Virus record (IMG/VR): IMGVR_UViG_3300048592_000721
Span: 1-59,644 of that record
DNA from: a virus
Reading direction: 5' to 3' (one strand)
Length of the DNA stretch: 59,644 nt
Under the pieces are notes generated by a model. That model saw only the letters and a program-made list of their open reading frames with translations, was not told the DNA's origin and ran no database searches. The position numbers and the translations under genes are program-made. Of this stretch, positions 1,086 through 48,796 are shown piece by piece (the first letter of the stretch is position 1; every line of letters starts with the position of its first letter).

Positions 1086-1230
1086 GGGAGGAGGGGGATT
1101 CGGAATAGTGTGAGGAATCACGCTTAAAGCGAGAAGCCTTGCAAACTGCAAGGCTTCAATCGTCAGTGCGTGAACTCTGGCTTCACGCTGCCGCTCGCGC
1201 GTCACTTGCCGCGAGCAAAAAATTAGTATG
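1086..1230. other. structured non-coding stretch next to tRNA-Gly
   Basis: No gene. It contains three good hairpins: a perfect 11-bp stem GAAGCCTTGCA (1133-1143)/TGCAAGGCTTC (1147-1157), GTGAA..TTCAC (about 1169-1185), and GCTCGCG (1193-1199)/CGCGAGC (1210-1216). It lies immediately 3' of the minus-strand tRNA-Gly, much as GC-rich hairpins lie 3' of the tRNA-Thr at 41.4 kb. It could be tRNA trailer or terminator structure. Confidence 0.4.
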
Positions 1231-1301
1231 AGCGGGGAGCAGGGATCGAACCTGCGCCTACTCGTTGGAAACGAGTCGTCCTACCACTGGACGACCCCCG
1301 C
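1231..1301 (-). tRNA. tRNA-Gly (anticodon TCC)
   Basis: On the minus strand a full cloverleaf can be drawn: acceptor GCGGGGG with TCCCCGC, anticodon stem ACTCG/CGAGT around the loop TTTCCAA (anticodon TCC, codon GGA), and a T arm GCAGG TTCGATC CCTGC. CCA is not encoded. It is a phage-borne tRNA transcribed away from the late operon. Confidence 0.93.
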
Positions 1302-31844: not shown

Positions 31845-33404
31845 CTATACTTCCATCGTGCGACTGGCTGCCGACTTCGCTTTCGGCTCGGCTTCGAGCG
31901 GAGCGCCAGCGATGATCGCCTTGCCTTTTGCCCACTCGCGCAGGGCTTTGATATCCTCCTTCTTGGTTTCAGAGGTTGGGACAATTTGCTTCGCGGCTTC
32001 GAGCAGGTAGGTGACATCCAAAGGCTTCTCGTCGAAAAACGCGCGCTCAACTGCGAACTTTACAACCTTCTCGATCTCGCGTCCTGAAAAACCCCATGTG
32101 GCATTGACAACGCTAACCAGTTCTTTTGAATCTAATAAGTTCGCTTTGTCGCGTTTTATCAAATGGACGCCAATGATTTCTGCGCGGCTCTGCGCATCTG
32201 GCAGATCCACGAACATCACGTCATCGAAGCGACTGAGCAACTCAGGACGCAGGGCATTCACGCTGTTGGCAGTCGCGATCACATAGACGGGCGATGTAGT
32301 TTCTTGCATCCATGTCAGGAGGGAACCAATCACGCGCATCATTACGCCGCCATCGGATGCGCCGCCGTTGTCTGCCAGCGCCTTTTCGATTTCATCCAAC
32401 CACAGGACACAGGGAGCGGTAGCCTCGGCAACTTTCAACGCTGTGGAGATATTGTTCTCGGCGGCTCCCACGCGCCCGCTTCCCAAAATCTTGCTCATGT
32501 CGAAGCGGAGTAGCGGCAGGGTTCCACCTGCGATTGCCTTTGCGCTCAGGCTCTTACCTGTGCCTGGCACGCCGACTAGCAAAACGCCTTTGGGAGCATC
32601 CACGCCAGCGGCGCGGGCTTTAGGTGACATGGCGAGACGCTTCCGTGCGGCATACTGTTTGAGGTTGTCCAACCCGCCCACGTCGCTCATGCTGACATTT
32701 GCCTCGAAGTATTCCAGCACGCCGCTCTTGCGGATGATTTGTTTTTTCTCTGCGATGATATGGGAGATAACACCGTCGCCAAGTTCGCCACAGGCTACCA
32801 CGCCAGCGGTCAGGACGTTTTCGGCTTCTTCTTCGGTCAGTCCGCGCATCGCCTGAATGACCTGGTCACGGTTGCCATTCAGGGTGACGGGAGTCGTGCT
32901 TGGCAGGTTGGATTCGGCTTTGCTCAAAATGGCTTCGAGTTCTTTCACGTCTGGTAGTGACCAATCAATCACGGCAATCTGTTTTTCAAGGTCAGGGTGT
33001 ACGTTCAGCGACGGACTGAGCAAAATCAGGTTGTGTTTGCGGGTCTGAAAACGGGCGGAAATGTCGCGCAAAAATCTAACCACCCGCACGTCATTCTCAA
33101 TTAACTTGTGCAGGTCTTTGAAAACAAACAGCGTACTTGGCGCGTTCCCTTCCTCGTCGAAGTTTGCCACCCATCCAAGCGCGGCGTTGGGGTCGGTGTA
33201 TTCATCTGCGGCAAGGTCTTCCACGCCGACCAGTCCCTGCGTGATGGTCCACTCCACGACTTGGCGCGGGACTTTCTTCCCGCTGGTGAGTCGCATTTCC
33301 TTCGAGAGTTTCTCGATGGCTTGCATGACGCGGGACTCTTCATGAGAGACGACAGCAATCAATGCGTAGCGGGCTTTTATGTAGCGTTCAAGCGGTTCTT
33401 TCAT
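31845..33404 (-). CDS. Ycf46-like AAA+ ATPase
   Basis: Protein of 519 residues. The C-terminal AAA+ core has Walker A LLVGVPGTGKSL (about 276-287), Walker B CVLWLDEIEKAL, sensor VIATANSV and the arginine-finger region LLSRFDDVMFVDLP, and the N-terminal 240 residues match the chloroplast/cyanobacterial Ycf46 layout. In cyanobacteria Ycf46 is linked to stress and carbon uptake control. Here, with DUF1257 and DUF2997 partners in an early phage operon, it may remodel a host complex. AAGGAGAACACC precedes ATG 33404. Confidence 0.82.
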   Translation of the reverse strand: MKEPLERYIKARYALIAVVSHEESRVMQAIEKLSKEMRLTSGKKVPRQVVEWTITQGLVGVEDLAADEYTDPNAALGWVANFDEEGNAPSTLFVFKDLHKLIENDVRVVRFLRDISARFQTRKHNLILLSPSLNVHPDLEKQIAVIDWSLPDVKELEAILSKAESNLPSTTPVTLNGNRDQVIQAMRGLTEEEAENVLTAGVVACGELGDGVISHIIAEKKQIIRKSGVLEYFEANVSMSDVGGLDNLKQYAARKRLAMSPKARAAGVDAPKGVLLVGVPGTGKSLSAKAIAGGTLPLLRFDMSKILGSGRVGAAENNISTALKVAEATAPCVLWLDEIEKALADNGGASDGGVMMRVIGSLLTWMQETTSPVYVIATANSVNALRPELLSRFDDVMFVDLPDAQSRAEIIGVHLIKRDKANLLDSKELVSVVNATWGFSGREIEKVVKFAVERAFFDEKPLDVTYLLEAAKQIVPTSETKKEDIKALREWAKGKAIIAGAPLEAEPKAKSAASRTMEV

Positions 33405-33434
33405 GGTGTTCTCCTTTGTATTTTCTTATCCAGT

Positions 33435-41221: not shown

Positions 41222-41381
41222 ATTTTTTTACTCTGATAAGCGGATATGTTCTCGACCTGAGCGGTTCACGAGCCGCCCAGGTCTTTGAGGAGGGAACACC
41301 ATGCGTACACCACATACGCAGTTTGTTCGGGAGGCTCCCGCGCCGCAGGACTTACGGCGCGGGGTGAATTTGCCTCCCAAG
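41222..41381 (-). other. hairpin-rich segment 3' of tRNA-Thr
   Basis: Three strong hairpins follow the tRNA on the minus strand: GGGAGGC..CCCGCGCCG/CGGCGCGGG..GCCTCCC (41329-41378), TGCGT/ACGCA (41302-41319), and ACCTG..GCGG/CCGC..CAGGT (41255-41282). No gene. It probably belongs to the same transcript as the large non-coding RNA and tRNA. Confidence 0.6.
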
Positions 41382-41454
41382 AGCAGATGACTGGACTTGA
41401 ACCAGTGACCTCCGAATTACGAGTTCGGTGCGCTGCCAACTGCGCCACATCCGC
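41382..41454 (-). tRNA. tRNA-Thr (anticodon CGT)
   Basis: Minus strand cloverleaf: acceptor GCGGATG with CATCTGC, D arm GCGC..GCGC, anticodon stem CCGAA/TTCGG around CTCGTAA (anticodon CGT, codon ACG), T arm ACTGG TTCAAGT CCAGT. CCA not encoded. It is embedded in the long structured non-coding region. Confidence 0.93.
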
Positions 41455-42002
41455 GTGATGCAGGATGAAGGGAGCCTATCCTGCATAGATCAAGCCTCTT
41501 AACAATAAAGTGGAGTCCGAGGCGTTGATTTCAAAAAAGTGAGTGATCCAGCCTTTGGCACTTTGCCACATCCCTGAACAATTTGCCGCTTTCGCGGAAG
41601 TCTGCATTTTTACTGTCAGGCACTCACTATTATTCGAAATTTGGAAGCCGCGCCGCTCTTATGGTTTGAGCGGAACCATTGCTCACCGCTCGCGACTTCC
41701 TGCAATTAGAGATTCGAGATAAAGGCTGGCGAAGTTCTGCGTGACAAGGCTTGCCTTGATGACACGCACCGGACTTTGTCTTTCACGGCTTCCGATTGTG
41801 CCGACCAGCATTTTTCCATCGAGCCTGTTACTCATTACCGTGGGTTCAGGCGCGCGCGAGTCTCTCTGCTCGATGGACTATGAAACGGGCGGCTGACTTG
41901 AACAGCACCTGCATCCATCCCATGAGTTCAGGACAAGACCATGACTCACTGGGCGACCCGTAACATTCGATTTTCAAGGTGATCCACGCCGCCCCATGTT
42001 TT
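41455..42002 (-). ncRNA. large structured non-coding RNA candidate (about 550 nt)
   Basis: There is no coding frame on either strand, yet the stretch is dense with stems: GTGAGTG (41539-41545)/CACTCAC (41621-41627) enclosing TGGC/GCCA and CCGC/GCGG; GGAAG.CGCG (41643)/CGCG.CTTCC enclosing CCGCTC/GAGCGG; GCGTG+CAAGGC/GCCTTG+CACGC (41739-41768); TCCATCGAG (41816-41824)/CTCGATGGA (41869-41877); CAGGAT/ATCCTG (41461-41482). Early motif site 6 sits just upstream (42013-42022) as its promoter-linked element and tRNA-Thr lies directly 3'. Size, phage context and tRNA linkage recall ROOL and GOLLD RNAs; the family match is not shown. Confidence 0.6.
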
Positions 42003-42012
42003 CTTACCCAGA

Positions 42013-42022
42013 TAAGTGTTCA
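42013..42022 (-). promoter_or_regulatory. early motif site 6 (drives the non-coding RNA)
   Basis: Minus strand TGAACACTTATCTGGGTAAG after the dnaB stop. As no protein gene follows for 800 bases, it supports transcription of the structured RNA. Confidence 0.75.
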
Positions 42023-42034
42023 AGAAACAAAAAA

Positions 42035-43396
42035 TCAACCTGTATATGCGGCATCCCTGAAAGTCGTGAATTTTTTTAGGTATTTCAGGTTTACGCTTCC
42101 GGTTGGACCGTCGCGGCGCTTGGCTACGATGCACTCGGTGTAATCCTTTTTGCCGTACTGATCGAGATATAGAAAGATGACTGTATTTGCATCCTGCTCG
42201 ATTCCGCTGGAATCTTTTAGGTCCGCAAGTGTTGGGCGTTTTTCTGTCCGTTGCTCCACGCTGCGATTAAGCTGAGCGGCAGAGATAACCGGGATGTCAA
42301 GTTCACGAGCAAGAAGTTTGTTCTGGCGTGATATGTGACCAACTTCCAATGCGCGGTTGGCGAAATTTCCACCACCGGACATCAATTGAAGGTAGTCTAC
42401 GATTACAAGGTCAAGACCATATTCACGCTGGATTTGCAAGCACTTTGCCCGAAGCGTGACTGGTGTAAGGTTGCTGATATCTGACAGGAATATTTGCCCT
42501 CTGTTTTCGTACAGTTCAATAGTTTCGTTAAAGCGGATCCACTCTTCACTGTCAAGACCGCCAGTCTTGATTTTTGTAGTTTCGATCATCGCTTCCTGAG
42601 AGATAAACCTTCTCACAACCTCTTCGCCGTTCATTTCCAGTGAGAAGATCGCGACATTTTTTCTTTGCTTCAAAACATTGTGCCTAGCAACGTCGAACAA
42701 AAACGAGGTTTTTCCTTGTCCAGGTGGTCCAGCAACGACAATATTTTCCTGGTTTTCCAATCCAAGAAGTAGCAGGTCAAGGTCGAGTAGCCCTGTCTTA
42801 ATTCCAGTGATAATTGATTCGCCTTTGGCGGTTCGCTCGGCATTGCTGGCGGCGCGGTCATATACTGCCGATATGCACGTTTTGAAAAAATCCTTGTCAT
42901 TACCTTTACTGGTCGAAATCGAAATAATCTCGCGGCTGGCTTCTTCTATCGCTTCCTCCGCTGAGAGCGTCGCTTTATAGGACAGGCTGGCTATCTTATT
43001 CGCTGCTGACAACAACTTGCGCCGAACCGAGTGACCTTCGACGATGCGCCCGTAGGATTCCGCATTCAGCGAAGACGGAACCTGGTTGATAAGCGAGGTC
43101 AGGTATGCCGACCCGCCAGCCTCCGCCAGTTGATTGACCCTTTCCATTTCCTCGGATACGGTCAGCAAATCAACGGACATCCGCTTTTCGTTGAGCCTGT
43201 CATAAGCCTGCCATACCCACTTATTGCGCTCGATGTAAAAATCATTGGCTGAAAGGAATTGCGCGATGTCGTAATAAACATCAGGGTTGATCAGCACTGC
43301 GCCGACTACTGCTTCTTCGGCTTCGCGGCTGTGCGGAACAGTCGTGCTCGTCATCTCTTCGACTTTTTCTTCTGGTGGGTAAAGTTCGTCGCTCAT
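42035..43396 (-). CDS. dnaB: replicative DNA helicase, DnaB family
   Basis: Protein of 453 residues, full length for DnaB. The N-terminal domain starts VPHSREAEEAVVGAVL; the RecA-like core has Walker A AGPPGQGKT (222-230), FSLEMNGEEVVRR, and Walker B LVIVDYLQLM followed by SAAQLNRSVEQR. It unwinds the phage replication fork as a hexamer. Its start overlaps the end of the initiator-like gene by four bases, so helicase and loader/initiator are made together. Confidence 0.93.
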   Translation of the reverse strand: MSDELYPPEEKVEEMTSTTVPHSREAEEAVVGAVLINPDVYYDIAQFLSANDFYIERNKWVWQAYDRLNEKRMSVDLLTVSEEMERVNQLAEAGGSAYLTSLINQVPSSLNAESYGRIVEGHSVRRKLLSAANKIASLSYKATLSAEEAIEEASREIISISTSKGNDKDFFKTCISAVYDRAASNAERTAKGESIITGIKTGLLDLDLLLLGLENQENIVVAGPPGQGKTSFLFDVARHNVLKQRKNVAIFSLEMNGEEVVRRFISQEAMIETTKIKTGGLDSEEWIRFNETIELYENRGQIFLSDISNLTPVTLRAKCLQIQREYGLDLVIVDYLQLMSGGGNFANRALEVGHISRQNKLLARELDIPVISAAQLNRSVEQRTEKRPTLADLKDSSGIEQDANTVIFLYLDQYGKKDYTECIVAKRRDGPTGSVNLKYLKKFTTFRDAAYTG

Positions 43397-48418: not shown

Positions 48419-48730
48419 TTATTCAAAAGCCTTCAAAAACTCAGACAATCTTGCTTCCAGCGACTTTAATTCTTCAAGATACAATTTTGAATTTACAACT
48501 TGTTCGGTATCGATTCTTATTGCGCGTTCTCCAAACAAAAGCGGAGTTTCATTTTTGGCGCTAATACGAGCGGCAAATGGAAGAACAAGACCGACGAGTT
48601 TATCGTTTGCTTCGCGGAATGTATTTGATATGCTTTTCGGGCGTTTTGCGCTGAATGCGGTTGCTGTGATTTTTGTCTTGCCTTTTGCTACAAATATCAT
48701 ACCGAAGACATTGAAGTTTTCAAGTGCCAC
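48419..48730 (-). CDS. protein of unknown function downstream of the integrase
   Basis: Protein of 103 residues: basic first half (MIFVAKGKTKITATAFSAKR) and a helical end (KSLEARLSEFLKAFE). It is separated from the integrase by the attP core, so after integration the two genes would lie at opposite ends of the prophage. Possibly an excision or attachment-associated protein. Not recognised. Confidence 0.5.
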   Translation of the reverse strand: MALENFNVFGMIFVAKGKTKITATAFSAKRPKSISNTFREANDKLVGLVLPFAARISAKNETPLLFGERAIRIDTEQVVNSKLYLEELKSLEARLSEFLKAFE

Positions 48731-48753
48731 TGGCGACCTCCAAAATTTTGAAA

Positions 48754-48796
48754 GGTGCCCCAGCCAGGAGTCGAACCCGGAACCTACTGTTATGGG
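48754..48796 (-). other. attP core: 3' half of a tRNA-Met-like gene
   Basis: Minus strand sequence runs from an anticodon loop containing CCATAA (anticodon CAT) through CAGTAGG, a T arm CCGGG TTCGACT CCTGG, to an acceptor strand CTGGGGC ACC. The 5' half of the tRNA is absent. This is the typical attP of a phage that integrates into the 3' half of a tRNA gene and rebuilds it. The integrase stop codon (48790-48792) lies inside this core. Confidence 0.78.

Follow-up and report, generated by a model that had tools for sequence, protein, structure and literature searches.

A candidate new family of large structured phage RNA, built like GOLLD, in two related Chloroflexi phages

The window analyzed here, namely the whole 59,644-nucleotide stretch of IMG/VR virus record IMGVR_UViG_3300048592_000721, contains about 780 nt of non-coding sequence on the minus strand, flanked by dnaB (42035-43396, identified by the Pfam DnaB N and C domains) and a DUF1064 gene (41218-40913). 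In the interval between these genes (42034-41219, minus strand of the virus record), the order of elements is an upstream motif (42003-42018), about 540 nt of helices, a tRNA-Thr(CGT) and three GC-rich hairpins (41378-41254). A preliminary description of this DNA had placed here a large, structured non-coding RNA in which a tRNA is embedded; its coordinates are correct and the strand is minus, and comparative evidence upholds the structured RNA with its tRNA but not the two families named for it, ROOL and GOLLD, neither of which is matched. The best reading of the sequence comparisons is that of a large phage RNA forming a new family with two members, apparently built like GOLLD.

No open frame of at least 60 amino acids is present in 42034-41455 (580 nt) and the small frames of the non-coding interval match no Pfam or PHROG family, in agreement with the stretch lacking a coding frame that had been described. 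A decayed gene was thus discarded, there being no coding remnant. The fold energy of the 580 nt upstream of the tRNA is lower than that of shuffled sequences on the minus strand (z -3.1, with 0/100 shuffles as stable), but z is -2.2 on the plus strand, so that energy is weak evidence for this part and homologues are needed. The three hairpins on the 3' side of tRNA-Thr, also part of the initial account, give z -6.8 (0/200 shuffles as stable).

Such a homologue was found through the terminase. Close relatives of DnaB were absent from viral contigs; the terminase had relatives there, and its alignment led to a prophage, with 93% protein identity, in the Chloroflexi metagenome-assembled genome JACRBJ010000078.1, hereafter called R. 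A DNA search of the R genome with the window RNA region matched the same locus (G020:C67 72735-71460, minus strand; L191), giving a homologous region in a related phage in which the helices are kept. Most of the genome is colinear between the two phages. Their RNA regions differ in length, about 1,280 nt in R vs. about 800 in the window, and the 5' part in particular measures about 1,040 nt in R, with extra domains, against about 540 nt in the window; whole domains have thus been gained or lost. Three blocks of the RNA are 92-94% identical between the two sequences (vs. 79.5% for the adjoining dnaB block), the stretches between these blocks differ in length and sequence, and the flanks of the tRNA slot are 76-94% identical. 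The further helical domains of R are joined by linkers such as UUGAAAAUYGAAUG and UUUUUUUGAAAU.

The elements of the window RNA are listed below from 5' to 3', together with the changes that are seen in R.

41880-41966, minus: Domain 1, helix P1 (AUG-UU-ACGGGU 41966-41956 / GCCCGU-UU-CAU 41890-41880) around P2 (41948-41944 / 41927-41923); block 94% identical in R.
41816-41876, minus: variable hairpin P3 (41876-41868 / 41824-41816); three compensatory pairs changed on both sides, and one broken outer pair.
41725-41809, minus: Domain 2, closing helix P4 with P5, P6 and P7; block 93% identical, two G-U-type changes in P5.
41643-41700, minus: Domain 3, 10-bp P8 and hairpin P9; three G-U-type changes in P8/P9.
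41539-41627, minus: Domain 4, P10 (GUGAGUG/CACUCAC) around P11 and P12 (GAAA tetraloop), then the U6 linker UUUUUUGAAAU; three two-sided compensatory pairs in P11.
41459-41523, minus: P13 (41523-41519 / 41498-41494) and P14 (41485-41478 / 41466-41459), directly 5' of the tRNA; one two-sided compensatory pair apiece.
41381-41454, minus: tRNA-Thr, anticodon CGT, complete cloverleaf, no encoded CCA (ARAGORN and Rfam, 68.8 bits).
41329-41378, minus: 3' domain, P15 (GGGAGGC/GCCUCCC) around 9-bp P16, conserved loop UAAGUCCUG; one two-sided and three G-U-type changes in P16.
41302-41320, minus: 3' domain, P17, conserved loop GUGGUG; three two-sided compensatory pairs.
41254-41283, minus: 3' domain, last hairpin P18 (11 bp) with its conserved loop CUCGUGAA; no pair broken, four changed on both sides and one by a G-U-type change.

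The 36-nt P1 block and its 11-nt partner GCCCGTTTCAT are present twice in R, with U-G changed to C-G; the Domain 3 loop CCGCUC is complementary to two GAGCGG stretches and might form a pseudoknot, while Domain 4 rests also on covariance model R2. Two signals noticed on the way were rejected: the ribosome-binding-site-like GGAGGG-AACACC-ATG near 41288-41302 on the plus strand does not mark a conserved gene, its frame shifting between the window phage and R, and a resemblance to the 3' end of 16S rRNA (GGATCACC) near 41980 is not kept in R.

Comparison of the window with R over 19 helices reveals 31 varying pairs; 20 of these differ on both sides yet remain paired, 10 differ on one side and one is broken, a count that leans towards structure because some helices were named with both sequences in view. 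The remaining helix pairs are identical in 97 cases and U-U in both sequences in two. Each of the 10 one-sided changes yields G-U in the minus-strand RNA; read from the plus strand they would yield A-C, so that selection acted on a minus-strand RNA. In the 3' domain every pair (27/27) is kept in both sequences, five of them being two-sided by the count of the tool, whereas control partners slid by 1-3 columns pair in 36-51% of cells; the pre-tRNA domain has two two-sided pairs, with slid controls at 30-43%. RNAalifold z values, computed for the alignment of window and R against column-shuffled alignments, favor the minus strand for the 3' domain (-9.3 vs. -2.8 on the plus strand), the pre-tRNA domain (-5.5 vs. 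-4.6) and domain 3 (-5.2 vs. -2.0), with 0/200 shuffles reaching the minus-strand value in each case. The structure is therefore conserved by strand-specific compensatory change in the homologue, the coding strand is the minus one, and the stems originally named are real.

The RNA is headed by a motif that also bears on its possible expression and has two copies at this locus.

41994-42023, minus: promoter/operator-like motif TTGAACACTTATCTGGGTAAGAAAACA at the RNA head, core 42003-42018, palindromic centre CTTATC-NG-GRTAAG.
41227-41242, minus: second, weaker copy (3 mismatches), ahead of the DUF1064 gene 41218-40913.

The motif had been recognized beforehand and is real, since the window contains 10 matches where 0.8 are expected and most of the minus-strand copies lie directly upstream of phage genes; it precedes the minus-strand genes starting at 33404, 35373, 41218, 46306 and 55962 and is present in the prophage relative too. 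In its 27-nt palindromic form TGAACACTTAWCWGGRTAAGAAAATAC it recurs on the minus strand at window positions 33425, 35406, 35953, 41227, 42003, 46317 and 55982, and the copies ahead of leftward genes likely constitute a phage regulon. Some of these copies directly follow a terminator-like hairpin with a T-run, the core is palindromic as expected of an operator, and in R the start codon of one gene overlaps the motif. TGAACACTTAWCWGGRTAAGAAAATAC may function as a promoter. A small open reading frame lies in R between the motif after dnaB and the RNA (L191 6280-6480) and is absent from the window. No terminator is found on the minus strand after the RNA, the last hairpin P18 lacking a U-run.

Given that the RNA runs straight from P18 toward the next genes, it could instead belong to the downstream operon (DUF1064, FtsK-like) as its long, structured 5' leader or as an attenuator, the tRNA being a processing point; the U6 that follows P10 and the U7 that follows the P10 counterparts in R would also suit such a role. 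We regard this as unlikely, however, because a separate motif copy (41227-41242) precedes the downstream genes and these are not the same in the two phages, an FtsK-like gene being directly after the RNA in R, because the conserved part far exceeds the usual size of leaders, and because Rfam shows no known riboswitch or leader.

The tRNA-Thr announced by the preliminary description is present, being detected by both ARAGORN and Rfam at 41454-41381 on the minus strand, and it conforms to the RF00005 cloverleaf with a decodable anticodon. The corresponding slot of R does not. Its fold is a cloverleaf in which the acceptor stem has 7 bp, the T arm (GGUUCGAUCC) is tRNA-like and the anticodon arm has 8 bp and a loop of 18 nt, but ARAGORN calls no tRNA there, Rfam matches it best to tRNA-Sec, with 15 bits (E 0.72; tRNA clan), and the folding energy is weak (z -0.8). 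The slot of R thus contains a tRNA-shaped element that is not a recognizable tRNA, and the content of the slot has been swapped between the two phages. Use of ACG codons is alike in both (13.9 and 14.0 per 1000) and only the window has tRNA-Thr here, so that decoding is not an obvious reason for its presence. These features, namely a slot that contains a real tRNA in one phage and in the other a tRNA-shaped element whose anticodon arm is long, and no decoding need to explain the tRNA, would be compatible with a tRNA-mimicking decoy or helper against host defences that cut tRNA, the slot being the active part and the rest stabilizing it. Yet conservation lies mostly outside the slot and this explanation names no defence target, which makes it quite improbable in our view.

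With regard to known RNA families, Rfam at gathering scores recovers nothing other than tRNAs in the window, and with E <= 10 only sub-threshold chance matches appear in the window RNA and R. ROOL (RF03087; covariance model of 574 positions, gathering score 99.1) is matched at E <= 10 neither by the window RNA nor by R, and a direct family search of the window does not find it, whereas the published ROOL of L. salivarius pMP118 was found by the same cmscan with 130.4 bits (PMC5643018); the absence of ROOL is thus meaningful, and this identity, one of the two originally suggested, can be set aside. GOLLD (RF02032; 416 positions, gathering score 150) likewise has no covariance-model match in the window or R, direct search included, in a search that had no GOLLD positive control. 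Direct search for RF01998 (group-II-D1D4-1) also gave no match.

The plan of the RNA nevertheless resembles that of GOLLD, a phage RNA described as variable in its 5' part and conserved in its 3' part, with a linker that sometimes carries a tRNA (PMC12286853), and reported to contain a pseudo-tRNA in Mycobacterium (PMC6582537). The present RNA is also a large RNA of phage and prophage with a tRNA inside, its 5' part is variable and its 3' part conserved (in a comparison of two sequences only), and its tRNA and tRNA-shaped element parallel the tRNA and pseudo-tRNA states known in GOLLD. It differs in lacking a model match, in having about 130 nt on the 3' side of the tRNA and in being found in a Chloroflexi phage lineage only. 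ROOL, a large structured phage RNA that is often near tRNAs and forms an octameric RNA cage (PMC12286853), shares with it size, structure and tRNA association, but the present RNA does not match the ROOL model and has its tRNA inside, not merely nearby. As for phage tRNA genes in general, the window slot is an ordinary complete tRNA-Thr(CGT), but this lies inside a conserved structured RNA of about 670 nt and the slot of R is non-standard. Because the plan of GOLLD is shared and its sequence model is not, we consider the RNA to be GOLLD/ROOL-like in its presumed working, not a member of either family. A very divergent GOLLD, beyond recognition by the Rfam model, would account for the phage location, the variable 5' part, the tRNA or pseudo-tRNA in the linker and the conserved 3' part; with RF02032 unmatched as reported above and about 130 nt after the tRNA to be compared with a model of 416 positions, we give it little credence. 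Finally, the view that the tRNA alone matters, the flanking hairpins being precursor sequence or a decayed gene, agrees with the complete tRNA of the window but is already largely refuted and most improbable, given that the flanks of the slot are well conserved although the tRNA of R is not intact, that 16 two-sided compensatory pairs lie outside the tRNA acceptor stem and that no coding remnant exists.

The reading favored here, with modest confidence, is that the region encodes a large, structured non-coding RNA belonging to a temperate phage of Chloroflexi and probably architectural in the manner of GOLLD and ROOL. It would be read leftward on the minus strand from just after dnaB, presumably from its own phage promoter early in infection, with the RNA itself as the product. 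Independent helical domains on short A/U-rich linkers lead to the tRNA or tRNA-shaped element and then to the conserved three-hairpin 3' domain; by analogy with GOLLD and ROOL, the RNA would fold and probably self-associate, with the linker-borne tRNA displayed or held, and might serve as a scaffold or cage. More tentatively, it may represent a third family of large architectural phage RNA, with no sequence relation to ROOL or GOLLD, that expands and contracts by entire helical domains and has one fixed slot for a tRNA or tRNA-like cargo that can be exchanged.

Several points weigh against this interpretation. Only two sequences are at hand, both of one phage lineage, and this limits the new class that the data favor; domains 1 and 2 are too conserved for covariation (alifold z -1.0 and -1.6); in R the motif stands ahead of the small open reading frame, not directly at the RNA; lack of a terminator means that the RNA could belong to a longer transcript; processing of the tRNA would split the RNA in two at the slot; and self-assembly is argued by analogy.

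A third member was not encountered through early genes or terminase beyond R, in 396 genomes of the class (DNA and covariance-model searches), in 400 genomes of the phylum (DNA search), or in phage and plasmid collections and by IMG/VR patterns beyond R; since patterns and BLAST miss diverged RNAs and the scans did not extend to metagenome contigs, these genome and collection searches do not establish rarity. The weak matches of model R1 in class genomes were rejected as mostly a dispersed GC-rich palindrome resembling P18, and the matches in L006 as coding coincidences. Such palindromes (GTAGGGGCGGCTCGYGAGCCGCCCCTAC) are dispersed in class genomes (L222, L223, L224, L226 and L227).

Elsewhere in the window, 48698-48789 beside the integrase gene matches R (L191 12985-13058) in a segment overlapping tRNA-Arg(TCG). 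These are probably attP and an attB within tRNA-Arg, which would make the phage temperate. A tRNA-Gly(TCC) is located near the left end (1230-1301, minus strand) and in the same place in R. Between structural genes, the minus-strand segment 10695-17368 carries a defence-like cassette with a Type IIG restriction enzyme-methyltransferase and an HKD/Snf2 helicase gene, for which BLAST found no match in R.

GOLLD and ROOL assemble into cages that consist of RNA alone and whose function is unknown, that of GOLLD being a 14-mer, and the reason why tRNAs occur in or near them is open. If the interpretation favored here is true, large RNAs of the GOLLD and ROOL kind would extend to a Chloroflexi phage lineage, and the tRNA-shaped element of R would make it possible to test independently whether the tRNA serves as cargo, as a structural part or as a decoy.
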